Position numbers and translations under genes: made by a program. Shown piece by piece: positions 10,773-21,028 of a stretch of DNA of 50,585 bases. The first letter of the stretch is position 1. Every line of letters starts with the position of its first letter. The notes below the pieces were generated by a model. That model worked only from the letters and a program-made list of their open reading frames with translations, made no database searches and was not told where the DNA came from. Source of the stretch: SAR202 cluster bacterium (lineage in GTDB: Bacteria; Chloroflexota; Dehalococcoidia; Lucifugimonadales; UBA826); contig RQOP01000034.1 in the NCBI GenBank assembly GCA_008373095.1, forward strand, positions 1 through 50,585, given 5' to 3'.

Positions 10773-11957
10773 CTATAGCAGGTTCTTTGGTTTTATTATT
10801 CCGAATGAGCTTGTGTATCCGTGGACGTAGGTAGATTCACCCACTGGACCAACTTCTCCATTGCAGAAAAAACCTGTTAACGGTATTTCACCAACAATCT
10901 CTTTAAACATATCTGTGTCGTGATTGGCTTCGCCGTAAAGGTATGAACCTCTTCCAAGGCATGAAAACAAAAGAGCTCCAAATTGATCATGTTCAGAATC
11001 GTCACTGTTATAACTTTCTAGCATTATTTTCAGATTTTCTGAGGAAGTATTTGAGTCTCTTAGGTGGAATTGTACTAATTGGCCTTCTCTTAGCATCTCT
11101 CCTATAGCTAATTTTCCTTCATCGGGGTTGGCACCGACTATGTTACGGATCAAAAAATCTTTCGTGGTAGGAGTGTCAATAAAAGGATCGGTGACTGTGC
11201 CTAAGAACAATGAATTTTGGAATAGTTGTTGATCAGGTTCAGAAAGTTGATTATATATCTCCGACAAAACTGTAAAGGGGCTTTTGTCATCTAGGCTGGT
11301 CAGTATATTTCGTTCGCATTCGGTGATTCTCATAAGGCTGCCGATTGGCTTGCAACCTTGGGCAACTATGGTGTCTATTTCCACGTTGCCATTTAATGCT
11401 ATACCTGCCACGCCGCGGTCTGTTGTACCGTTCAAATATATAGCGTTACTTCCCGGTTGTGATCCCCCACTAGCTATACCACCGATAATTGTGGAGTCTG
11501 GAAAAGCGTAGTCCATTCCTTTGATAAGGCTCTGTATTTCAACTGTGAAAGGATCTGCAAGAATAATAAATTTGGGTTCTGAGTCTCTTTTCACCTTAAC
11601 CAGAGATTCCCATTTTTCAGGTGGTTGATCACCATCTGGCAATTCGCTACCAGTAATGTGAAATGGGGTAATTGAAACATCAGGCATTATTGCAGCCGTC
11701 AGGGCTATCCCTGGCCTATTTTCAACCTCAATTCCTTCACCTATCACACCGTTACCAGAACAGCCTATCAGCGTAGTCTCGGGGAAATATTCTGAAACTA
11801 ATTCCGGTAAATCTTGGTAGAAGGCTTGAAAATCTGGAGACACAAAAGCTATGAGAAGGTGAGGCTGAACCTTTAGATCTGCTTCGATCGCAGCTAGGCA
11901 TTCCCTGGCGCCACTTTCAAAATCTGATGACTCTGATATTTTTGAGGACCAATCCAT
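10773..11957 (-). CDS. FIST-domain sensory protein
   Basis: A 394-residue protein with FIST_N (about residues 30-225: LIAFVSPDFQAFYQDLPELV, IGCSGNGVIG, DSTIIGGIASGG) and FIST_C (about 230-375, closing with LTGFFCNGEVGPVG and HGYTSSFGIIKP). FIST domains are proposed small-ligand sensors that are usually fused to signalling domains. Here they stand alone, with no membrane helix. It is the last of ten co-directional genes, eight bases after the HpcH aldolase, so it may sense a metabolite of that pathway. That role is inference. Confidence 0.88.
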   Translation of the reverse strand: MDWSSKISESSDFESGARECLAAIEADLKVQPHLLIAFVSPDFQAFYQDLPELVSEYFPETTLIGCSGNGVIGEGIEVENRPGIALTAAIMPDVSITPFHITGSELPDGDQPPEKWESLVKVKRDSEPKFIILADPFTVEIQSLIKGMDYAFPDSTIIGGIASGGSQPGSNAIYLNGTTDRGVAGIALNGNVEIDTIVAQGCKPIGSLMRITECERNILTSLDDKSPFTVLSEIYNQLSEPDQQLFQNSLFLGTVTDPFIDTPTTKDFLIRNIVGANPDEGKLAIGEMLREGQLVQFHLRDSNTSSENLKIMLESYNSDDSEHDQFGALLFSCLGRGSYLYGEANHDTDMFKEIVGEIPLTGFFCNGEVGPVGESTYVHGYTSSFGIIKPKNLL

Positions 11958-11965
11958 ATTTATAT

Positions 11966-12691
11966 TTAGTAGCCTCTGATTCCGCTACCACCTTCCAGCA
12001 TTTCTCTAACTGAGTCTCTAACTGCTATTGTCGCGTCTACTGAAACCATGATGTCTTCGTTTCGATACTTGCCTGCTGCGTGTATTTTTTCGGTACCCTC
12101 GTCGGTAACCTTGATGCAGTCAGGATGATCAGGTTCTCCGGGGAATCCCATGGACTGAGCGAGGTCATTGGGTCCGCCAGCGAAAACATTTATCCCATCT
12201 ACTTTCAATATTTCGTCAAGATTATTATAGGCTTTGATGTCTTCTATTTGAGGCATGAGTAAAAGATCATCATTTGTATCCTGCATCATTTTCTTTAGGT
12301 CATCAACAAGACCGAATCTTTGAACTCTTTTGCTTGTATAGCTCCTATGGCCTTGTGGGGCGAAATAGCAGCAATCTATCATAGCTTCTGCTTCTTCTCT
12401 CGTATTTACGAACGGAATAGTTATAGCTTTGATGCCTCGGTCAATATAGTTCAAAATATTGCTCGGTATCTGGTCTGGAACACGCATGGTGGGTGTGACT
12501 CCCCATCCATCGCACATCCTGGCAAATCTATCTATTGTTTCCGGAGTGACCGGAGCGTGTTGGCCATCATAATTTACAAAATCTAGACCCATAGCTCCGG
12601 CTAATTCAACCATTTCATCAGCATAAAAGCTCAACGAGATACCATAGGATTTTTTGCCTTCTTGCATGTTGGAAATAATTTTGTTTGCCAT
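11966..12691 (-). CDS. HpcH/HpaI-family aldolase
   Basis: Class II metal-dependent aldolase of the HpcH/HpaI/citrate-lyase superfamily, 241 residues. The barrel motifs are GLDFVNYDGQHAPVTPETID, TPTMRVPDQIPSNILNYIDRG, MPQIEDIKAYNNLDEIL, and INVFAGGPNDLAQSMGFPGE. AAGGAG lies nine bases before the ATG. Members cleave or form 2-oxo-4-hydroxy acids with pyruvate as one product. A homologue of the same family is at 21051-21815 in another LLM-containing operon. Usual family members are about 250-260 residues, so the protein is full length. The exact substrate is unknown. Confidence 0.9.
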   Translation of the reverse strand: MANKIISNMQEGKKSYGISLSFYADEMVELAGAMGLDFVNYDGQHAPVTPETIDRFARMCDGWGVTPTMRVPDQIPSNILNYIDRGIKAITIPFVNTREEAEAMIDCCYFAPQGHRSYTSKRVQRFGLVDDLKKMMQDTNDDLLLMPQIEDIKAYNNLDEILKVDGINVFAGGPNDLAQSMGFPGEPDHPDCIKVTDEGTEKIHAAGKYRNEDIMVSVDATIAVRDSVREMLEGGSGIRGY

Positions 12692-12737
12692 TTCTATTCA
12701 CTCCTTCTTTTTGGGGATTGTACTTGGATTGTTCCGA

Positions 12738-13082
12738 TTACGCTTTTTTATCGCCATGCCGATATGGTCTGGTTTGGTTGTAAGATAGTTTAGTGGTTAA
12801 CGATTCTTCTAAGTCCAATTCAAACTCGCCGCATAAATCAGCTATTCGGATAATGACGTCTGCCAATTCCACTGTAAACCCTTCCGGTTTTCCTCTTTCA
12901 TCTAACCAGTTTTCACCAATGGAATCTTTACCCTTGACTCGATAGACTTCGAGTGCTTCACTGACTTCACTGTGTATAAGTGCTAGAAGCTCACCCACAT
13001 TTCGGTCAGGATCATCCCACCAGCCTTTGGATTTTGCAGTTTGATGGGATTCTTTTATGAGATTTTCAATTGTCATAGACAT
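12738..13082 (-). CDS. MazG-like nucleotide pyrophosphohydrolase
   Basis: All-alpha NTP pyrophosphohydrolase of the MazG-like type, 114 residues with one domain. Metal-binding acidic pairs are seen in LIHSEVSEALEVYR (ExxE) and VELADVIIRIADLC (ExxD). The ATGs at residues 1 and 3 are both possible starts. It lies in the ten-gene run between an LLM enzyme (20 bp) and the HpcH aldolase (46 bp). House-cleaning of damaged nucleotides would fit an oxidative-stress operon led by a peroxiredoxin, but that link is inference from position. Confidence 0.88.
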   Translation of the reverse strand: MSMTIENLIKESHQTAKSKGWWDDPDRNVGELLALIHSEVSEALEVYRVKGKDSIGENWLDERGKPEGFTVELADVIIRIADLCGEFELDLEESLTTKLSYNQTRPYRHGDKKA

Positions 13083-13102
13083 TTTTCATGCCTCCAATCC
13101 AA

Positions 13103-14104
13103 CTAGTTTATGAAAGGAGCCAGAGATTGAATGGTTGCTTGATAGGCTTCCTTTGTGTCTTCATTTAAGACTAATCTTATTTCGTCCACCCCCGCATCAA
13201 AAAAGTTTTTCATTTGTGCTGCACATTCTTCAGGCGTACCGATTATTGTGGTGGCATCAACCATTTCGTCAGTAACAAGGCTGGCGGCTTTTCCCCTTTC
13301 TTTGTCCAGATAGGCTTTCCTGACCATATCAGCCTCTTCTCCAAAACCTATTCGATGCATGTATTGATGATAGAACACCCCCATACCTCCAATATAGAAA
13401 GATATGTGAGGACGCTCCCTGTCTCTCGCAAGTTTTGGGTCATCTGTGACATATACTGAAACTTGAGGTGAAATGGTGATGTCCTCAAGGCTTCTACCCA
13501 CAGATTCTGCTCCTTCTCTGAGCTGAGATACTGCGGCCTCCATTCTTGAAGGTGCTAGGAATATAGGCAACCATCCGTCGGCTATTTCTCCCGTCATCTT
13601 AAGACTAGGTGGACTTAAAGAGGCTATGTATATTGGGAGGTCAGGTCTATGGGGAGTGAAGCGTAGTCTAAACCTGTTTATTTCAAAAAATTCTCCCGAA
13701 TGATCTAATCTTTCACCATTCATGGCTTTTCGTAGTATGTCAACATACTCTCTTATTCTGGTGATGGGTTTTGAAAACTTTTCGCCATGTAGGTCTTCAA
13801 TTACCAATTTACCACTCGCTCCTAATCCTAAAAAGAATCTTCCCTTCGACATAACATCCATGTTTAGTGCTGTCATAGCTAGATTTGCAGGTGACCTCGC
13901 AAATACTGGAACAATGCTTGTGCCGATTTTGATTCGTTCGGTAACAGCCGCTATTTGGGCTAATGAAGTGAAGGCGTCTTCCCCCCAGGATTCTCCCATC
14001 GTGACACAGCTATACCCTAAGTCGTCAGCCATAATTGCCAATTCCTTAGTTTCGTCCCAGGACCCCCCTGGAGCTCTAAGACCCATTATTCCTACATCAC
14101 CCAT
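13103..14104 (-). CDS. LLM-class flavin/F420-dependent oxidoreductase (Mer-like)
   Basis: Luciferase-like TIM-barrel enzyme, 333 residues, closest in pattern to F420-dependent methylenetetrahydromethanopterin-reductase-like proteins. Typical blocks are LAIMADDLGYSCVTMGESWG, TSIVPVFARSPANLAMTALN, MSKGRFFLGLGASG, and LPIYIASLSPPSLKMTGEIA, with GTPEECAAQM near the C-terminus. GAGGAG lies six bases before the ATG. It is the third LLM gene of the ten-gene run and follows the LLM at 14144 by 39 bp. The substrate is not predictable. The F420 preference is inferred from family likeness. Confidence 0.9.
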   Translation of the reverse strand: MGDVGIMGLRAPGGSWDETKELAIMADDLGYSCVTMGESWGEDAFTSLAQIAAVTERIKIGTSIVPVFARSPANLAMTALNMDVMSKGRFFLGLGASGKLVIEDLHGEKFSKPITRIREYVDILRKAMNGERLDHSGEFFEINRFRLRFTPHRPDLPIYIASLSPPSLKMTGEIADGWLPIFLAPSRMEAAVSQLREGAESVGRSLEDITISPQVSVYVTDDPKLARDRERPHISFYIGGMGVFYHQYMHRIGFGEEADMVRKAYLDKERGKAASLVTDEMVDATTIIGTPEECAAQMKNFFDAGVDEIRLVLNEDTKEAYQATIQSLAPFIN

Positions 14105-14143
14105 TTCTTACTCCTCTTTTTTGATATGACTTTATTCTATCTA

Positions 14144-15190
14144 TTAATTCGACCCGATGAATTCGGTTCCAACAATTTCCATAGTATTGATAGCTTCTTC
14201 GTGATTCAAATCACCCCATTGGAAAGAAATCAATAAGAAGTTGCAATCGCTGTTATTTTCGTATTTTTTTAAATAGTTGATGACTGAGTCAGCGGATCCT
14301 GCCACAACCTGCTCTTTTTCAATTGCCGTCTCAAAATCAATTGTCCAAGGAAGTATCCTTTTACCAATTTCACTTTCAATCATTATTTTAGGTCTGCGGC
14401 TTTCTCCGCCGGGGAGTGGTTTACGAAAATTCGACCTGTATATTTCAAAAGATTTCTCGGCCCTTTGTAAAGCGGATTTATCTGTTTTTCCTATAAAGAT
14501 TCGTTTGGAAACTCCTAATAGAGGATTTTGAAAGAAATGAAATCTTGATTTTTTTGTTTCGTACTCGGCACGGGTTTCTGAATAAATGGTATTGATCTTC
14601 GGTAGATCAGCTACTGTACCTTCTGTTATCAAATTTCCACCGATCTGACCCGCTTTAACAGGATTTCCAGCAACCCATATAGGTGGGTGTGGTTTTTGAA
14701 ATGGGCTCAGTTCCATCCATAGATCTTCAAATTGATAATGATTACCTGAGTAGTTTATAAATTCCTCGGTAAGGCCCTGCATCACGATCTCTACAGATTC
14801 ATTATAGATATCGTCAGAATCTAGCGGGTTTTGTCCCCACATTGCCAGTTCATCACCAACTGGTGCCCCTCTACCAAAGCCAACATCCAACCTACCTGAG
14901 GTTAAGTTATCTAGAGTGCAAATTTCTTCAATAATTCGAATTGGGTGATGAAGAGGGAGAACATATACTAAAGGGCATAATCGAATAGTTGATGTTACTG
15001 AGGCCAGAGCCCCAAGATAGGCTCCTTGAACGGGGGCGGCGGTCAACGGTGAGTGATGGTGTTCTGCAACATGGTAAGAATAAAACCCTAGAGTCTCAGC
15101 CTTTTTCACCATTGATATTCTCTGAGCGTACTGTACGGGAAGTGATAGGTGTTTAAGCCGTTCTACGTGATCAAATATACCTACTTTCAA
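14144..15190 (-). CDS. LLM-class flavin-dependent monooxygenase
   Basis: Luciferase-like monooxygenase, 348 residues. Blocks seen are GFYSYHVAEHHHSPLTAAPV, LCPLVYVLPLHHPIRIIEEI, LDNLTSGRLDVGFGRGAPVG, and HPPIWVAGNP. The start is TTG with AAGAG seven bases upstream. The HHHSP and LPLHHP motifs resemble bacterial luciferase alpha-like monooxygenases. It lies 19 bp after the Ddn-like reductase (15210), whose F420 chemistry may be related. FMNH2 or F420H2 are both possible cofactors. Confidence 0.9.
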   Translation of the reverse strand: MKVGIFDHVERLKHLSLPVQYAQRISMVKKAETLGFYSYHVAEHHHSPLTAAPVQGAYLGALASVTSTIRLCPLVYVLPLHHPIRIIEEICTLDNLTSGRLDVGFGRGAPVGDELAMWGQNPLDSDDIYNESVEIVMQGLTEEFINYSGNHYQFEDLWMELSPFQKPHPPIWVAGNPVKAGQIGGNLITEGTVADLPKINTIYSETRAEYETKKSRFHFFQNPLLGVSKRIFIGKTDKSALQRAEKSFEIYRSNFRKPLPGGESRRPKIMIESEIGKRILPWTIDFETAIEKEQVVAGSADSVINYLKKYENNSDCNFLLISFQWGDLNHEEAINTMEIVGTEFIGSN

Positions 15191-15209
15191 GAATTTACTC
15201 TTGATAGAC

Positions 15210-15647
15210 TTATGAAACTGGTTCGGCTAAGAAGACAGGTATTACACGATCAGTTTTCTGTTGGTATTCGTGATAAGGAGGGTATGCCTCTACTGCAATC
15301 TTCCAGAGTCTTTTCCTCTCACCTGAATCAGTGATTTCTCTTACTGTCATATCGTATATATCTGAGCCGTCCTGAATTTTGACGGATGGGTTGGCTTTGA
15401 GATTGAAGTACCACACCGGATGTTTTGGAGCACCTCCGGTTGAGGCTACCAATATGTAGTTGGAGCCATCAACTGCTCTCATAAGAGGAGTTTTTCTTAC
15501 AGCACCTGTTCTATTCCCTGTATTTGTGACGACTATGACAGGGAGCCCGGTCTCTCTAAGGGTGGTCCCTTCTTTCCCTCCGCTAGATTCATATAATTCA
15601 ACTTGTTCTCTAACCCAATCCCTAGGGCTCGGAATATATTCGGCCAT
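15210..15647 (-). CDS. Deazaflavin (F420)-dependent nitroreductase-family protein
   Basis: Ddn-family split barrel of 145 residues. Signature LPVIVVTNTGNRTGAVRKTP, then STGGAPKHPVWYFNLKANP and YQQKTDRVIPVFLAEP. AGAGGA precedes the ATG by about nine bases. It shares family and length with the gene at 7873-8310 but differs clearly in sequence, so the two are old paralogues. It sits between two LLM monooxygenases in the ten-gene run (43 bp from one, 19 bp from the other), which suggests a joint F420-linked reduction/oxidation route. Confidence 0.9.
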   Translation of the reverse strand: MAEYIPSPRDWVREQVELYESSGGKEGTTLRETGLPVIVVTNTGNRTGAVRKTPLMRAVDGSNYILVASTGGAPKHPVWYFNLKANPSVKIQDGSDIYDMTVREITDSGERKRLWKIAVEAYPPYHEYQQKTDRVIPVFLAEPVS

Positions 15648-15690: not shown

Positions 15691-16791
15691 TTAAGCAATC
15701 GCAGACACCACATTTTCCTTATGATACTTTTTTACCTTTTCACGAAGCAATGGTATTAATTCTTTGCCCCAGTATATAGCGTCTTCGATAGGGTTGAATC
15801 CTCTAATTAAAATGGTAGTGCCGCCAATTTTGTAGTAGTTCAATAAAGAATCTGATACTTGATCGGCGGTCCCAACTAATGCCGTACTGTTTCCTGTCCC
15901 CCCCGTAGCAGCTGCAATTGGCATATACAATCGTTCGTCTTGTATGTCGCCTTGTTTGGCAAAGTACACTAGCCTTTTTGATCCAATAGACATGGTCCTG
16001 TCATTAAAGGGAGCATTTTTGCCTTGAACAGCTGCCAACGTGTCATAAGCCCTTTCCCAAGCTTCTGTTTCAGTATCAGCAACTATCGGTCGGGTAGAAA
16101 CAGAGAACCTCACCTCATTAGGGTCTCGCCCTGCATCCTTTACTCTTTTCTTAAAATCATCGATCTTTTTACTAACATCAATAAGAGGTTCCCCAAAAGT
16201 GGCGTAGACATCGCATTCTTTAGCTCCAATGTTCAAGGCTACTTCGGAAGACCCACCAAAATATACCGGTATTCTTGGTTGTTGATAGCAATCCACATCA
16301 CTAAAAGCCTGATTAAATTTGTAAAATTCACCAGAGAAATCAAAGGGTGAATCCTCACTCCAAATCCTTTTAATGATGTGCATAAATTCACCAGATCTTC
16401 TATATCTGTCTTCTTTGCTCAAAAAATCCCCATCTTTCTGTTGCTCAACCTCTGAACCCCCGCTTATTATATGGAGGGCGATCCGACCCTCGGTGAGTTG
16501 GTCGAAAGTGGCGGCCTTTCTCGCAAGCAGAGTGGGACTAACAAAGCCGGGTCTATGAGCGATTAAAAACCCCAAACTTTTGGTGTGGGCAGCTGCATGC
16601 ATGGCCACTATAAATCCGTCTGCTGCACTCGACCTATAGCCTACTAAAACTTTATCAAAGCCACTGTCTTCGTGAGCTTTTGCAAATCTAACTATGTGAT
16701 CCTTACTAACTCCAGTGCCGATAACAGAAACCTGGTTTTTACTGGAAGTTCCTTTCTCAGCCCCAATCATTCCTATGATTTCTACATTCAT
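15691..16791 (-). CDS. SsuD-like LLM-class monooxygenase
   Basis: Luciferase-like monooxygenase resembling FMNH2-dependent alkanesulfonate monooxygenase. Blocks include LVGYRSSAADGFIVAMHAAA, GFLIAHRPGFVSPTLLARKA, FDQLTEGRIALHIISGG, and IPVYFGGSSEVALNIGAKEC, which are characteristic SsuD-type segments. I chose the ATG at 16791 (366 residues), since AAAGGA lies about ten bases upstream and a longer frame to 16866 would run into the SDR gene. The sulfonate substrate is inferred from family and is uncertain, as no ABC sulfonate transporter is near. Confidence 0.9.
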   Translation of the reverse strand: MNVEIIGMIGAEKGTSSKNQVSVIGTGVSKDHIVRFAKAHEDSGFDKVLVGYRSSAADGFIVAMHAAAHTKSLGFLIAHRPGFVSPTLLARKAATFDQLTEGRIALHIISGGSEVEQQKDGDFLSKEDRYRRSGEFMHIIKRIWSEDSPFDFSGEFYKFNQAFSDVDCYQQPRIPVYFGGSSEVALNIGAKECDVYATFGEPLIDVSKKIDDFKKRVKDAGRDPNEVRFSVSTRPIVADTETEAWERAYDTLAAVQGKNAPFNDRTMSIGSKRLVYFAKQGDIQDERLYMPIAAATGGTGNSTALVGTADQVSDSLLNYYKIGGTTILIRGFNPIEDAIYWGKELIPLLREKVKKYHKENVVSAIA

Positions 16792-16802
16792 TTTGAATTC
16801 CT

Positions 16803-17777
16803 TTATTGATCTTCCCAATCGGTTCCTTGGGATATTGTTTTTGCGATTTTTTCTGAAAACTCCCACAACCTTTTGCCCATCATTTGATCTTCCCCATGTC
16901 TTGACGTTGACTTCGGATTGCAGTTTGAAAAATATTTACCACTTACACCTTTTATGTCTGGATGTGTACTCGCATATATCTGAGTAGCTGCACCTTGGTG
17001 AACATTTTTGAAGAGCAGTTTTTCCACCAAAACTGCGCCATATTTTAGGATGGGGTTGTAATGCCTGAGTAAATTAGTTCTGATCACCCCGGGGTGGACA
17101 GCATTGGCAGTTTGGTGGCTACCATTCAATCGGTTTGCCAGTTCATTTGAGAATAATAGATTTGCCAATTTAGAGTGCCCGTAAGCTTTCTGAGGGTTGT
17201 ATTTATTAAAGCCAGAAAAGTTGTCGAACTGGATTCCGTCAGGATAAGCAAAAACTTTGTGTGCCGAGCTTGAGACGATCGTTATCCTTGCCTCATCGGT
17301 AAGTAAAGCCATAAGTTGGTTCACTAACATAAAATGACCGATGTGATTGGTTAAAAATTGAAGTTCTACCCCATATTTTTGTTGTAGCTGTGGTAGAGCC
17401 ATGATGCCAGCGTTGCAGATTATTGAATCTATTTGTGTTCCTGATTTAATTAGAGTCTGAGTACATCGCATAATGGAACTCGGTTCAGATAAGTCGCATT
17501 CAAGCGGCATGAATAGGGCGTTCGCAATTGGCTTGATTGAATTGGCTTTTTCAATAGTTCTAGCCATGCCAATTACTTTTGCGCCTCTTAAAGATAAAAC
17601 TCTTACGGTCTCCAATCCCAGACCGGAATTGGCTCCTGTAACGACGATTGTTTTGTCAGTAAGGTCAATAGACCTGGTTACCTCTTCTGCAGTCGTGTGG
17701 AATCCCAAACCGTTTGGGCCAATTTTGGCGAAACGATCCATGAAGGGGATTCGAGAGCTGGCCAATGATTCTAACAA
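16803..17777 (-). CDS. Short-chain dehydrogenase/reductase (retinol-dehydrogenase-like)
   Basis: Classical SDR, 324 residues from a TTG at 17777, or 312 from the ATG at 17741. The cofactor motif is VVTGANSGLGLE, the active-site YGHSKLAN gives YxxxK, and ICNAGIM supplies the NAG motif. The C-terminal part resembles the retinol dehydrogenase/WWOX-like group. The gap to the SsuD-like LLM is 11 bp and to DUF4395 is 33 bp, so it belongs to the ten-gene run. NADP(H) or NAD(H) and substrate cannot be fixed. No clear SD decides the start. Confidence 0.9.
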   Translation of the reverse strand: MLESLASSRIPFMDRFAKIGPNGLGFHTTAEEVTRSIDLTDKTIVVTGANSGLGLETVRVLSLRGAKVIGMARTIEKANSIKPIANALFMPLECDLSEPSSIMRCTQTLIKSGTQIDSIICNAGIMALPQLQQKYGVELQFLTNHIGHFMLVNQLMALLTDEARITIVSSSAHKVFAYPDGIQFDNFSGFNKYNPQKAYGHSKLANLLFSNELANRLNGSHQTANAVHPGVIRTNLLRHYNPILKYGAVLVEKLLFKNVHQGAATQIYASTHPDIKGVSGKYFSNCNPKSTSRHGEDQMMGKRLWEFSEKIAKTISQGTDWEDQ

Positions 17778-17810: not shown

Positions 17811-18302
17811 CTAATACTCATATACGGCACACCGTTCACAGACTGTTTCTGGAACAATTCCTACTGAGATCAAAACCTTGAATACTTTACAGGCAAAGCA
17901 ATATCCCAATACCGATTCTAGAAATGCAAATATGCTCAGCACTGAAAGAAGAAATATACTAATAGAGTGGAAGTTAGTTAGCCACAAAATAAAAATTGAT
18001 GTAGAAAATACTAATCCAATACTTTGGGCAAACCGCTTGGGTGGTCCTGGTACTAGTTTTTCATCAAAATTGAATTTGGGCACTAGAATTTTTGTAACTA
18101 TCAAAGCAAGGGGACTAACTTTTGGGCCAGATAGTACTCTGGCTAAAAAGCCGTAAGTCATAATCAACAATATTACCCAAACAAAAGTTACGTCCAAGCT
18201 GATTAGACATATCGATAGAATCGACATTAAAAGGACTCCCGAGGCCACCAAACGTGCCGCAGGCTCATTTATTAGCTCTGGAAATGAAAAGAATTCTCGC
18301 AT
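17811..18302 (-). CDS. DUF4395 membrane protein with two CxxC motifs
   Basis: Protein of 163 residues matching the DUF4395 pattern: an N-terminal NEPAARLVASGV, LSGPKVSPLAL, PGPPKRFAQSIG, and a C-terminal tail rich in cysteines. Four hydrophobic stretches (roughly residues 17-35, 38-55, 92-109, 112-132) suggest a polytopic membrane protein. Two dithiol motifs are visible, GYCFACK (Cys135/138) and VCERC (Cys155/158). GAG lies six bases before the ATG. It is 13 bp after the 1-Cys peroxiredoxin, so a redox partnership is attractive but inferred. DUF4395 function is not established. Confidence 0.88.
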   Translation of the reverse strand: MREFFSFPELINEPAARLVASGVLLMSILSICLISLDVTFVWVILLIMTYGFLARVLSGPKVSPLALIVTKILVPKFNFDEKLVPGPPKRFAQSIGLVFSTSIFILWLTNFHSISIFLLSVLSIFAFLESVLGYCFACKVFKVLISVGIVPETVCERCAVYEY

Positions 18303-18315
18303 ATTTAACTCGTTT

Positions 18316-18969
18316 TTATAAATTGGGTTGAGGTGTAGTTCGAAGGTATTCCTTTACTATCGTGTGCCCTTTAGGAAATTTGCTGGGAATTTCCTCGGTA
18401 GCCACTGCCGGTACGACGATACAGTCTTGTCCATCTTCCCAGTCTGCAGGAGTAGCAACCTGGTAATTCGCAGTAAGTTGAAGAGAGTCCAAAACACGTA
18501 GTATTTCGCTGAAATTTCTTCCTGTTGATGCTGGATAGGAAATGATTAGTTTCACTAATTTATCTGGTCCGATAATGAAAACTGACCGCACTGTTAATGT
18601 GTCGTTTGCATTAGGGTGGATCATTCCGTACGCGTCGGCTATGGCCTTGTTTGGATCTTCGACAAGAGGGAAATCAACGTTTGCGTTCTGGGTCTCATTC
18701 ACATCTTTTATCCACTCAGTGTGTGATTCCAGTGGGGTGAGATCTGCTTTGGTGCCAACACTAACTACAAGTACCTTTGCACCTCTTTTTGAGAATTCAG
18801 ATTTTAAATTTGCCACCCTCCCAATCTCGGTTGTGCAAACAGGAGTGAAATCAGCTGGATGGGACATAAATATGCCCCATTGATTGCCCAGCCATTCATG
18901 GAAATTTATTTCTCCTTGAGTGGTATTTGCTGTGAAATTTGGGGCTTCATCTCCAATTCTTAGGCTCAT
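18316..18969 (-). CDS. 1-Cys (Prx6-type) peroxiredoxin
   Basis: Peroxidase of 217 residues that reduces hydroperoxides through Cys45, in HPADFTPVCTTEIGRV. The Prx6 architecture is confirmed by the C-terminal extension (NYQVATPADWEDGQDCIVVP). The other cysteine, Cys183, lies in that extension and may not be a resolving residue. AGGAG precedes the ATG by six bases. A strong hairpin terminator sits immediately upstream of this site (18983-19009). It is the first gene of the ten-gene minus-strand run. The electron donor for 1-Cys enzymes is often unknown, and DUF4395 next door is a candidate. Confidence 0.96.
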   Translation of the reverse strand: MSLRIGDEAPNFTANTTQGEINFHEWLGNQWGIFMSHPADFTPVCTTEIGRVANLKSEFSKRGAKVLVVSVGTKADLTPLESHTEWIKDVNETQNANVDFPLVEDPNKAIADAYGMIHPNANDTLTVRSVFIIGPDKLVKLIISYPASTGRNFSEILRVLDSLQLTANYQVATPADWEDGQDCIVVPAVATEEIPSKFPKGHTIVKEYLRTTPQPNL

Positions 18970-18982
18970 TTTTTCTCCTAAT

Positions 18983-19009
18983 AAAAAAACCCCGCTTTTG
19001 CGGGGTTTT
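18983..19009 (-). terminator. Intrinsic terminator in the leader of the peroxiredoxin operon
   Basis: The stem AAAACCCCGC pairs perfectly with GCGGGGTTTT (18986-18995 with 19000-19009) around a four-base loop. On the minus strand it is followed by a run of seven T. It ends only about ten bases before the peroxiredoxin ribosome site, so transcripts entering from upstream must pass it. No gene ends upstream on that strand, so either it is an attenuator or it closes a short RNA. In the plus direction the T run is only four long. Confidence 0.85.
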
Positions 19010-19046
19010 CTAGTTGATCTAATGGTTTTTTTAACGAACGATCAAT

Positions 19047-19067
19047 ACCCCGAACCTACTGGGTCGG
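19047..19067 (-). promoter_or_regulatory. Candidate anti-terminator and competing hairpin
   Basis: On the minus strand CCGACCC and GGTTCGG flank an AGTA loop (19050-19067), a hairpin with one mismatch. Its 3' arm runs into CGGGGT (19047-19052), which is exactly complementary to ACCCCG in the 5' arm of the downstream terminator. The two pairings cannot coexist, the layout of an attenuator. This is paper folding only. Confidence 0.35.
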
Positions 19068-19117
19068 TACAACAAGAACAGTTATTTGTGTCTATTGATA
19101 TGTTCATTTCGCCCAAT

Positions 19118-19147
19118 ATCCTAAAACACTTTGTGACAAGTTATCAA
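19118..19147 (-). promoter_or_regulatory. Possible promoter of the peroxiredoxin operon
   Basis: TTGATA (19142-19147) and TAGGAT (19118-19123) on the minus strand, 18 bp apart. Transcription would start near 19110 and give a leader of about 140 bases containing the hairpins. The hexamers match the consensus only partly. I saw no better pair in the 300-bp gap 18970-19269, which otherwise holds only a 38-codon frame at 19212 with no support. Confidence 0.3.
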
Positions 19148-19269: not shown

Positions 19270-19815
19270 ATGACGGTTTCAGCTTTAATAGTATTGGCTT
19301 TACGGGTAATTCTTCCCTTATCAATATTTAGAAATAGGATAACTGGTGCCATTTTGTCTATGGCATTGGACCTATTGGATGTAGTGATAGTAGACGCTTT
19401 GCAGGTAGCTTTGGGCGAGCCTCAAGTTGGATTTGGTGAAAACTACCAAATGTTCGACAAATGGCTAGATATGTATTACTTATCAATTGAAGCTGTGGTT
19501 TGCTTGGGTTGGCCAAATCGTCTAGCAAAAGTCGCTGCTATTGCCCTATTTGTATTTCGGTTGGCGGGCATTTCTGCATTCGAGGTAACAGGTGAGGAGT
19601 TTAGGAAACTTATTTTCTTTTTCCCTAACCTTTTTGAGAATTTTTTCCTGTATTACATAATATGTGACCGATTTGCTCCTCGCCTTATTCCTACCAAAAT
19701 AAAATCACTGCTGTTTGTTCTGTTACTCCTGTATGTGCCTAAATTTGCCCAAGAGTATGTCTTACATTTTGCCGAGGTGAAACCGTGGCAATGGATCAGG
19801 GCAAATGTCCTTTAG
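19270..19815 (+). CDS. Unknown polytopic membrane protein
   Basis: I do not recognise a named family. The 181 residues contain about five hydrophobic segments (near 3-20, 25-48, 70-80, 86-104, 145-157). The second carries acidic residues inside the hydrophobic run, LDLLDVVIVDAL (Asp34, Asp37, Asp42). Other notable blocks are FDKWLDMYYLSIE and FFPNLFENFFLYYI. Buried acidic residues often mark metal binding, proton transfer or catalysis in membrane enzymes, but this is only suggestive. It starts divergently from the peroxiredoxin leader and ends 16 bases from a convergent LLM gene. The start is supported only by CAGGG ten bases upstream. Confidence 0.75.
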   Translation: MTVSALIVLALRVILPLSIFRNRITGAILSMALDLLDVVIVDALQVALGEPQVGFGENYQMFDKWLDMYYLSIEAVVCLGWPNRLAKVAAIALFVFRLAGISAFEVTGEEFRKLIFFFPNLFENFFLYYIICDRFAPRLIPTKIKSLLFVLLLLYVPKFAQEYVLHFAEVKPWQWIRANVL

Positions 19816-19831
19816 GCATTATTGGTCGTCG

Positions 19832-21028
19832 TTAGGATTTGGATTTCTCACCCTCAAGGCCCTCTGTTTGCATTACTTTGGCAGCACTTTCATGTTCAGC
19901 AACATTGCTTAGCCTAGCATCAGTAGCTCTTTTCCAAGTCTCTCTATTGTTTACCACAAATTCTATAGAGTCTCGGTAATCTGCCAGCATGGAGTTTATT
20001 TCGGGGATTACATATCTCGCGACTAAATCCCAACTTTTTTTAGTGTTTTCTCTGTTGGCCCAGTCGTGTGCGAATCCAATAACTGCACCAAATCCGCCTG
20101 TAACATCAATCATTTCTTGTATTTTGTTTATCAAATCGTCAGGAGTTCCGATTACTGCATTACCTACACCGGAAAAAGCAACGGCATCTACCGCTTCATC
20201 AGCCGTTTTGAAAATCTGACCATCATCAGGCCTCAGAGCTCTTGTCGTGTATTCGTTATTGTGTATCAGCAGGCCGTCTTTAGCTTCTTCTCTTGCTTGA
20301 TCTCGACTTTCTGCGATGTGCCAACTCATCAGGATTCGCCAATTTTTCCTGTCTATTGCGGTCCCATGTTTCAATGCGGATTCTTCAGCAAACTCCCATT
20401 GCCTCGCGAGCGATTTAAGACCTTGTGAGGCCATTCCTCCTATTGATATCACACCAGTTTCATATTTTCCTGACAATGTCATACCTGACGGAGTAAAGGT
20501 CGAAGCGACGACAAATTCCATGTTTTCCTGTAATGGTCTCAGCTGCAATTTAGCGTCTCTCAATGTAAACCATTCAGATTCGTATGAAAATCTTTCGCCT
20601 GAAAAGAGTCTTTTAATTATTCCGATTGCTTCATCTTGTCTGGAACGCAGTAGCATTGGGTCCAATCCCAAGGTGTGTGCATCGGATGGTAGTGCCCCTG
20701 GACCAGATCCGAATATGACTCTTCCTCTTGATTGATAATCTAATTGCACCAACCTCTGGGCGACCATAAAAGGGTGGTGATATGGGAGTGAAATCACTCC
20801 GGTCCCTAGTTTGATTCTCTGGGTACGTTCCGCTGCTGCAGCCAGAAACAATTCTGGCGAAGCTATAACTTCCCAGCCAGTTGAATGGTGCTCTCCACAC
20901 CAAAATTCGTCGAACCCTAGATTATCTAAGTGTTGCACGAACTCTAAATCACTTTGGAGTTGGAGCATGGGGTTTTCACCAATGGGGTGATGTGGTGCCA
21001 GGAAGGCACCGAAGCTCATGTTGTTCAA
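19832..21028 (-). CDS. LLM-class flavin-dependent monooxygenase (limonene-monooxygenase-like)
   Basis: Luciferase-like monooxygenase of 398 residues, longer than the other LLM copies. Blocks include FGAFLAPHHPIGENPMLQLQ, GFDEFWCGEHHSTGWEVIAS, GTGVISLPYHHPFMVAQRLV, and YQSRGRVIFGSGPGALPSDA. This is the pattern of limonene/long-chain LLM monooxygenases using reduced FMN. The start is a TTG with AGGA seven bases upstream, and an ATG at 21019 is an alternative. It is the last gene of the five-gene operon (22 bp after the HpcH aldolase). The long charged tail ends in EKSKS. The true substrate is unknown. Confidence 0.9.
   Translation of the reverse strand: MNNMSFGAFLAPHHPIGENPMLQLQSDLEFVQHLDNLGFDEFWCGEHHSTGWEVIASPELFLAAAAERTQRIKLGTGVISLPYHHPFMVAQRLVQLDYQSRGRVIFGSGPGALPSDAHTLGLDPMLLRSRQDEAIGIIKRLFSGERFSYESEWFTLRDAKLQLRPLQENMEFVVASTFTPSGMTLSGKYETGVISIGGMASQGLKSLARQWEFAEESALKHGTAIDRKNWRILMSWHIAESRDQAREEAKDGLLIHNNEYTTRALRPDDGQIFKTADEAVDAVAFSGVGNAVIGTPDDLINKIQEMIDVTGGFGAVIGFAHDWANRENTKKSWDLVARYVIPEINSMLADYRDSIEFVVNNRETWKRATDARLSNVAEHESAAKVMQTEGLEGEKSKS

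Follow-up and report, generated by a model that had tools for sequence, protein, structure and literature searches.

The region upstream of a 1-Cys-type peroxiredoxin gene in a SAR202 cluster bacterium is very probably a cysteine-responsive, ribosome-mediated transcription attenuator. It lies on the minus strand of the window, by which we mean the whole stretch of DNA analyzed (50,585 nucleotides, contig RQOP01000034.1), where 178 bases hold, in order, a promoter-like pair, a short open reading frame (ORF), a small hairpin, a spacer, an intrinsic terminator, a Shine-Dalgarno sequence, and the peroxiredoxin ATG (Table 1). The key to the element is the 21-codon leader ORF, which was absent from an earlier account of this DNA made from its letters (the sequence-only reading); its three Cys codons lie at 19080-19078, 19074-19072, and 19071-19069 of the minus strand. 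Support at the sequence level comprises the ORF, the Cys codons, the alternative pairings, the terminator, and the conservation of all of these, and we infer translation of the leader, stalling, read-through, and a shortage of sulfur or cysteine as the natural signal.

Table 1. Leader elements and downstream genes, in window coordinates
Feature	Position	Strand	Basis or remark
Putative -35-like hexamer TTGATA	19142..19147	-	Promoter-pattern scan; TTGATA/TTGAAA at same place in L004-L007
-10-like hexamer TAGGAT	19118..19123	-	10 nt 5' of leader ATG; TAGGAT or TACGAT in 5/5 same-genus leaders
Leader ORF MNISIDTNNCSCCTDPVGSGY*	19042..19107	-	21 codons plus TGA; ATG at 19107, TGA ends at 19042
Sensor codons Cys-Ser-Cys-Cys (TGT TCT TGT TGT)	19069..19080	-	Invariant in 5/5 same-genus leaders
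Small imperfect hairpin (segments 1:2)	19050..19067	-	-7.7 kcal/mol
Antiterminator 5' strand CGGGGT-A-TTGATC	19040..19052	-	Overlaps last leader codons and stop
Antiterminator 3' strand GATCAA...ACCCCG	19001..19019	-	Overlaps terminator 5' arm
Intrinsic terminator hairpin and U-tract	18983..19009	-	Sequence reading, folding, relatives
Shine-Dalgarno AGGAG of peroxiredoxin gene	18975..18979	-	Directly 3' of terminator; gene ATG at 18969
1-Cys-type peroxiredoxin (AhpC/TSA + 1-cysPrx_C)	18316..18969	-	Domain matches
DUF4395 membrane protein, second gene	17811..18302	-	Domain match
Short-chain dehydrogenase (SDR), third gene	16803..17777	-	Domain match
Luciferase-like monooxygenase, fourth gene	15691..16866	-	Nearest SsuD/SfnG; start probably inside ORF
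Rest of co-directional chain	10773..15647	-	F420H2 quinone reductase, two LLM oxidoreductases, 114-aa protein, HpcH/HpaI aldolase, FIST protein

The sequence-only reading had placed a strong minus-strand terminator with seven T just 5' of the ribosome site of the peroxiredoxin gene, and its coordinates were confirmed. The stem-loop at 19009-18986 of the minus strand reads AAAACCCCGC-AAAA-GCGGGGTTTT, with the seven T at 18989-18983. A pattern scan for terminators did not list it, presumably because the stem takes in the T-run. The terminator was also said to belong to no upstream gene, and this was borne out, since the next minus-strand ORF (19832-21028) ends about 820 bp away with a plus-strand ORF in between; with none close on that strand, an upstream-gene terminator was rejected. 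Folding of 18955-19147 gave a z score of -2.99, and none of 200 shuffled sequences folded as well. For the promoter that had been proposed further upstream, the pattern scan gave a TTGATA-18-TAGGAT match at 19147-19118, but with 28 such matches in the region versus 38 expected, there was no enrichment.

Mutually exclusive folds had likewise been proposed, and the two pairings behind that proposal were reproduced, namely, CGGGGT (19052-19047) with ACCCCG (19006-19001) and, exactly as written, the imperfect hairpin at 19067-19050. The antiterminator extends beyond the first of these through the pairing of TTGATC (19045-19040) with GATCAA (19019-19014). It occupies the 5' arm of the terminator, and the two folds exclude each other. 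Its 5' strand comprises the final leader codons with the stop and 2 bases beyond it, and it starts 16 nt past the last Cys codon. The duplex (-14.5 kcal/mol; z score of -1.78) was matched by 9 of 200 shuffled sequences, a modest advantage only.

Folding with a masked ribosome footprint placed the antiterminator 5' strand under a ribosome at the stop codon and left it exposed with a ribosome at the sensor codons. In a partial transcript in which the terminator 5' arm had just been made, masking of the last Cys codon plus 6 nt gave the antiterminator (-13.3 kcal/mol), and masking through the stop codon plus 6 nt gave no fold until the terminator (-18.4). The antiterminator also formed at equilibrium with no ribosome present (-15.3), so the untranslated default would rest on kinetics. 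In the full-length leader RNA, the terminator was always preferred.

The regulator, left unnamed in the sequence-only reading, can now be proposed with good confidence to be ribosome stalling at the leader Cys codons. The predicted sequence of events is as follows: (i) RNA polymerase would start a few bases 5' of the ATG at 19107, and a ribosome would begin almost at the 5' end of the transcript; (ii) with plentiful Cys-tRNA, the ribosome would reach the TGA at 19042 and cover CGGGGTATTGATC; (iii) with CGGGGTATTGATC covered, the terminator at 19009-18983 would form and transcription would stop before the peroxiredoxin gene; (iv) when cysteine is short, the ribosome would stall on TGT-TCT-TGT-TGT and open the small hairpin; and (v) CGGGGTATTGATC, now free, would pair with GATCAA...ACCCCG, and polymerase would read into the peroxiredoxin-DUF4395-SDR-monooxygenase genes. 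This four-segment logic is also that of the classical trp, his, phe, and leu attenuators, which consist of a leader ORF, a 1:2 hairpin, an antiterminator, and a terminator with a U-tract. The window leader differs from them in its use of Cys and in its first gene, which encodes an antioxidant enzyme and not a biosynthetic one. The peroxiredoxin gene does not belong to cysteine biosynthesis, and this counts against a cysteine attenuator.

Seven other genomes of the genus were available, four of which carry the peroxiredoxin at 90 to 95% identity (L004-L007); those lacking the gene are not informative. In all four, the leader ORF has 21 codons, no indels, and the core CSCCT...GSGY*. Across the five leaders, the N-terminal codons vary freely and CSCC is invariant (5/5). 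Base pairs were kept in 100% (terminator), 95% (antiterminator), and 93% (small hairpin) of cells in the alignment of the window with its four relatives. Retention of the alternative stems in these genomes supports the earlier view of an attenuator-like leader. A covariation check on the same leaders found the stems kept but no two-sided compensatory change in the five sequences; the pairs hardly vary, and the alignment therefore neither proves nor disproves covariation. Between lineages, the complementarity of the antiterminator strands was kept, whereas their sequences were not.

The leader precedes ten co-directional genes separated by gaps of at most 46 nt, consistent with the possibility, raised earlier, that it gates all ten; however, the full chain was present in only one of the four same-genus relatives; a second had most of it, and in the remaining two it ended with the third gene. 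Several families of the order have DUF4395 as the second gene, and it adjoined the peroxiredoxin gene also in L254-L257, L262, L263, L264, and L272. The fourth-gene monooxygenase scored 214 bits against TIGR03565, below the curated cut-off of 518. Divergent from the peroxiredoxin operon lies a hydrophobic 181-aa ORF (19270-19815, plus strand) with no Pfam match.

The survey was then widened to 70 peroxiredoxin upstream regions, 68 from the 69 places in 250 genomes of the order (G023:C192 was left out) and 2 from 393 genomes of the class. A Cys cluster was defined as CC or CxC in an ATG-initiated ORF ending just 5' of the terminator; our simple terminator and ORF scans missed interrupted stems and non-ATG starts, and L283, which contains Ns, is doubtful. 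An intrinsic terminator was found in 22 of the 70 regions, and in 18 of these 22 a Cys-cluster ORF precedes it. A further locus (L008, with a CC ORF and a terminator containing N) was kept outside the 18 and would be the nineteenth. Cys-cluster peptides in the same layout thus occur at 13 peroxiredoxin loci beyond the five of the genus, and these distant peptides are mostly unrelated: CCCNCC (L016), CCCCCC (L017 and L018), CRC (L020), CSCC (L021), CSC (L023), CCTCC (L024), CCC (L050, L054, L156, and L157), and CTC (L053). An NCBIfam scan of ten leader peptides gave no named family and a single chance-level TnpB match (E value of 0.31).

The arrangement was absent from L009, L019, L022, L025, and L026, whose peroxiredoxins share about 60 to 82% identity, and from nearly all homologues below 57% identity. 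Terminator and Cys ORF were found together at none of 10 peroxiredoxin loci of the phylum outside the class. Among other phyla (Bacteroidota, Nitrospirota, Verrucomicrobia, Pseudomonas, and others), it was present at 0 of 80 loci and 0 of the 7 with a terminator. One of the records examined (L128) is titled a Klebsiella pneumoniae MAG, and its peroxiredoxin falls among relatives from Bacteroidota, Nitrospirota, and Verrucomicrobia; the label may be wrong.

Several other short ORFs were seen upstream of peroxiredoxin genes. Four loci of one genus (L063, L065, L069, and L073) share a conserved four-codon ORF, MCLC*, about 100 nt before the gene, with a tRNA-like sequence just 5' of it and no intrinsic terminator; it may be a Cys leader acting at the level of translation. 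Among the relatives of the phylum outside the class, L290, L292, L293, and L294 have short ORFs containing Cys (e.g., GCCRC) and no terminator, and L027, L033, and L035 have mutually similar short ORFs of the form M(T)xYLR(G/S)CCVIEIIA, also with no terminator. The leader core DDLFHL(C) is common to L023, L025, and L066, with a stop in place of Cys and no terminator in L025.

Two controls bear on how often the combination arises. Shuffling of the sequence before the terminator gave a Cys-cluster ORF in 3.0% of cases (33/1,100). Among 131 gene starts with sufficient room in the window and 25 other stretches, 17 had the combination (15 peroxiredoxin genes, one YeeE gene, and one lipoprotein gene); this is not a genome-wide rate, since the stretches were mostly chosen for holding a peroxiredoxin gene, and the useful number is the 114 starts with no Cys ORF plus terminator.

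The same arrangement was found at other sulfur genes. Thirteen genomes were searched for a pattern of two Cys codons followed by a terminator; because the reversed pattern, used as a control, gave about as many matches in several of them, each hit was judged on its own. In G009, MKPQELSQNNNIVFAHMMCCDMGCCMN* and a terminator precede genes for O-acetylhomoserine sulfhydrylase and a MetA-type homoserine acyltransferase, and G014 is similar. In G093, MINNQQNCICCCCTSLNRGITARMFIH* precedes genes for a sulfur transporter of the YeeE/YedE type, a TusA-like protein, and a rhodanese. The YeeE leaders (45 loci; the partial place G095:C17 was left out) had a Cys ORF in 25 of the 31 with a terminator, versus 3.3% in shuffled sequence; the YeeE leaders of the window's own genus (L273 and L278-L281) lack it. 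In G160, a Cys leader is followed by the peroxiredoxin gene, YeeE 12 nt on, and then genes read from their sequences as TusA-like and rhodanese-like, which places peroxiredoxin and sulfur import in one predicted transcription unit.

For metY (30 loci), 4 of the 8 leaders with a terminator had a Cys ORF (shuffled, 5.5%); this count is too low, because interrupted terminator stems in the window's genus escaped the scan. In the window's own genome, metY is preceded by the leader MNPHKLEQNDKVNCVHMMCVMMCCGMDCCLT* and a terminator (L197). Leaders L194-L199 and L208 (the last with MNFTAMQNMRFMMMYMMMCTMLSAMFSGCQ...) are rich in both Met and Cys codons, a composition that suggests a methionine or joint Met/Cys attenuator. 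None of the 17 cysS loci of the order whose start could be placed (of 30; 13 were not placeable) had a Cys leader. A Cys leader, YSCGCCCRNKVRPMDF*, with a terminator also precedes a gene for a 460-aa lipoprotein-like protein in G006 (L191, 5984-7366, minus strand), which had no Pfam or NCBIfam match.

These peptides bear on a different reading of the leader as an arrest peptide or redox sensor, in which a Cys-rich nascent chain, through oxidized thiols or a bound metal, would stall the ribosome in response to peroxide or metal instead of Cys-tRNA. Cys is indeed the only residue type common to the leaders, the first gene encodes a peroxidase, and some leaders have more sequence in common, as with the DDLFHL core. 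We nevertheless regard this as improbable: apart from Cys, the peptides are almost wholly different; up to six Cys in a run looks like codon counting; and metY leaders with Met and Cys codons precede methionine-synthesis genes, which fits codon supply better.

The 18 peroxiredoxin, 4 metY, and 25 YeeE leaders were pooled. These 47 are not 47 independent cases, because clustering at 70% identity reduces them to 25 groups (15, 25, and 32 clusters over the range of 65 to 75%; clustering at 60% is meaningless for leaders this AT rich). Cys accounts for 194 of their 1,097 residues. The best duplex of the terminator 5' arm with the sequence 3' of the last Cys codon, compared with 200 shuffles for each leader, had a mean z score of -2.8, and 39 of 47 were below -1.64. 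Hexamers resembling a -10 element gather on the 5' side of the leader ATG, at distances of 6 to 10 nt (these five offsets hold 33 hits versus 89 at the other 55, or about 1.6 per offset), and a Shine-Dalgarno-like motif precedes 8 of 47 leader ORFs versus 26 of 47 genes. On account of this pile-up and the scarcity of Shine-Dalgarno motifs, translation of the leader ORFs probably begins at the transcript 5' end or close to it, which would make them nearly leaderless.

Across the order and class, 47 of 61 terminator-bearing leaders of the three gene types have a Cys ORF before the terminator. This figure, the same order of elements in the window, and the complementarity of the antiterminator strand to the terminator arm speak against control at the level of translation or through Rho, with the hairpin incidental. 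Mycobacterial poly-Cys leaders do act without obvious terminators, as far as the available text of PMC1262725 and PMC13236596 goes, and the MCLC* loci lack a terminator as well, but for the leader studied here such control is very improbable. Searches of Rfam 15 gave no known riboswitch, T-box, or leader family at gathering score; the best subthreshold match on the minus strand was Phe_leader, a classical attenuator, at 37 bits versus a gathering score of 55. It is scarcely credible that the hairpin is an ordinary terminator, or part of a riboswitch or small RNA, independent of a Cys ORF that is there by chance. Small RNAs and riboswitches would also show a strong terminator in the 5' region, but no Rfam family reached gathering score, the combination arises in only about 3% of shuffles, and all five same-genus leaders retain the ORF, its frame, and CSCC.

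A Cys attenuator is an element of a kind already known, since Cys leaders of mycobacteria and of Rhodobacterales cysS are in print. According to the accessible portions of the sources, Cys-codon leader peptides with no terminators were predicted for mycobacterial cys operons in 2005 (Seliverstov et al., PMC1262725) and put forward once more on the basis of ribosome profiling (PMC4633059), and their response to cysteine was shown by Canestrari et al. in 2020 (cited in PMC13236596, PMC9094748, and PMC9031893). Like these, the SAR202 leader has a short ORF with clustered Cys codons 5' of sulfur genes, and its start seems nearly leaderless; unlike them, described in the same portions as translation attenuation with no obvious terminators, it has an intrinsic terminator and an antiterminator and would gate a peroxiredoxin. 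The uORFC-8-2 motif 5' of cysS in Rhodobacterales, predicted in the available text of PMC8632094 to act by ribosome-mediated attenuation, likewise has two tandem Cys codons (codons 14-15, versus 12-13 here) before an intrinsic terminator. It differs in phylum and in gene, cysS there and peroxiredoxin here, and cysS of this order had a Cys leader at 0 of 17 loci. A literature search that left most subscription papers outside its reach returned nothing on Cys attenuators of SAR202 or Chloroflexi or on SAR202 and peroxiredoxin; nor did it bring up an earlier description of such a combination for this lineage, of a Cys leader serving a peroxiredoxin, or of the group of sulfur genes.

A link between this enzyme class and sulfur comes from Pseudomonas aeruginosa, in which, according to the text available for PMC12581299, sulfur starvation induces the 1-Cys peroxiredoxin LsfA more than 45-fold along with sfnG, msu, and ssu genes. 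A 1-Cys peroxiredoxin, which in the window lies near an SsuD-like monooxygenase gene, is there grouped with FMNH2-dependent sulfur monooxygenases; in contrast, that text reports no Cys leader peptide, and none was present at the four Pseudomonas-titled loci surveyed here (L147, L150, L152, and L155). The biological rationale of the connection between antioxidant enzymes and sulfur limitation is called largely unexplored there. Because of the LsfA induction and the DUF4395 and SsuD-like neighbors, we infer that the leader may be part of a sulfur-limitation response, in which flavin monooxygenases would scavenge organic sulfur and the peroxiredoxin would remove leaked peroxide.

More broadly, and only tentatively, Cys-codon (and Cys-plus-Met-codon) attenuators with nearly leaderless peptides might define a sulfur regulon in this uncultured lineage that takes in sulfur import (YeeE/TusA/rhodanese), homocysteine synthesis (metY-metA), and the 1-Cys peroxiredoxin together with the DUF4395 protein and SsuD-like monooxygenases; defense against peroxide would then be wired to Cys-tRNA charging and not to a peroxide-sensing protein. 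The proposed attenuator joins an intrinsic terminator to a nearly leaderless Cys leader of the mycobacterial type. Since such leaders flag sulfur genes from sequence alone, they can help to assign function, as for DUF4395 proteins and YeeE-type transporters. For this uncultured lineage, the leader would supply a concrete regulatory input, cysteine supply, and would put an antioxidant enzyme under RNA-level control by sulfur limitation.
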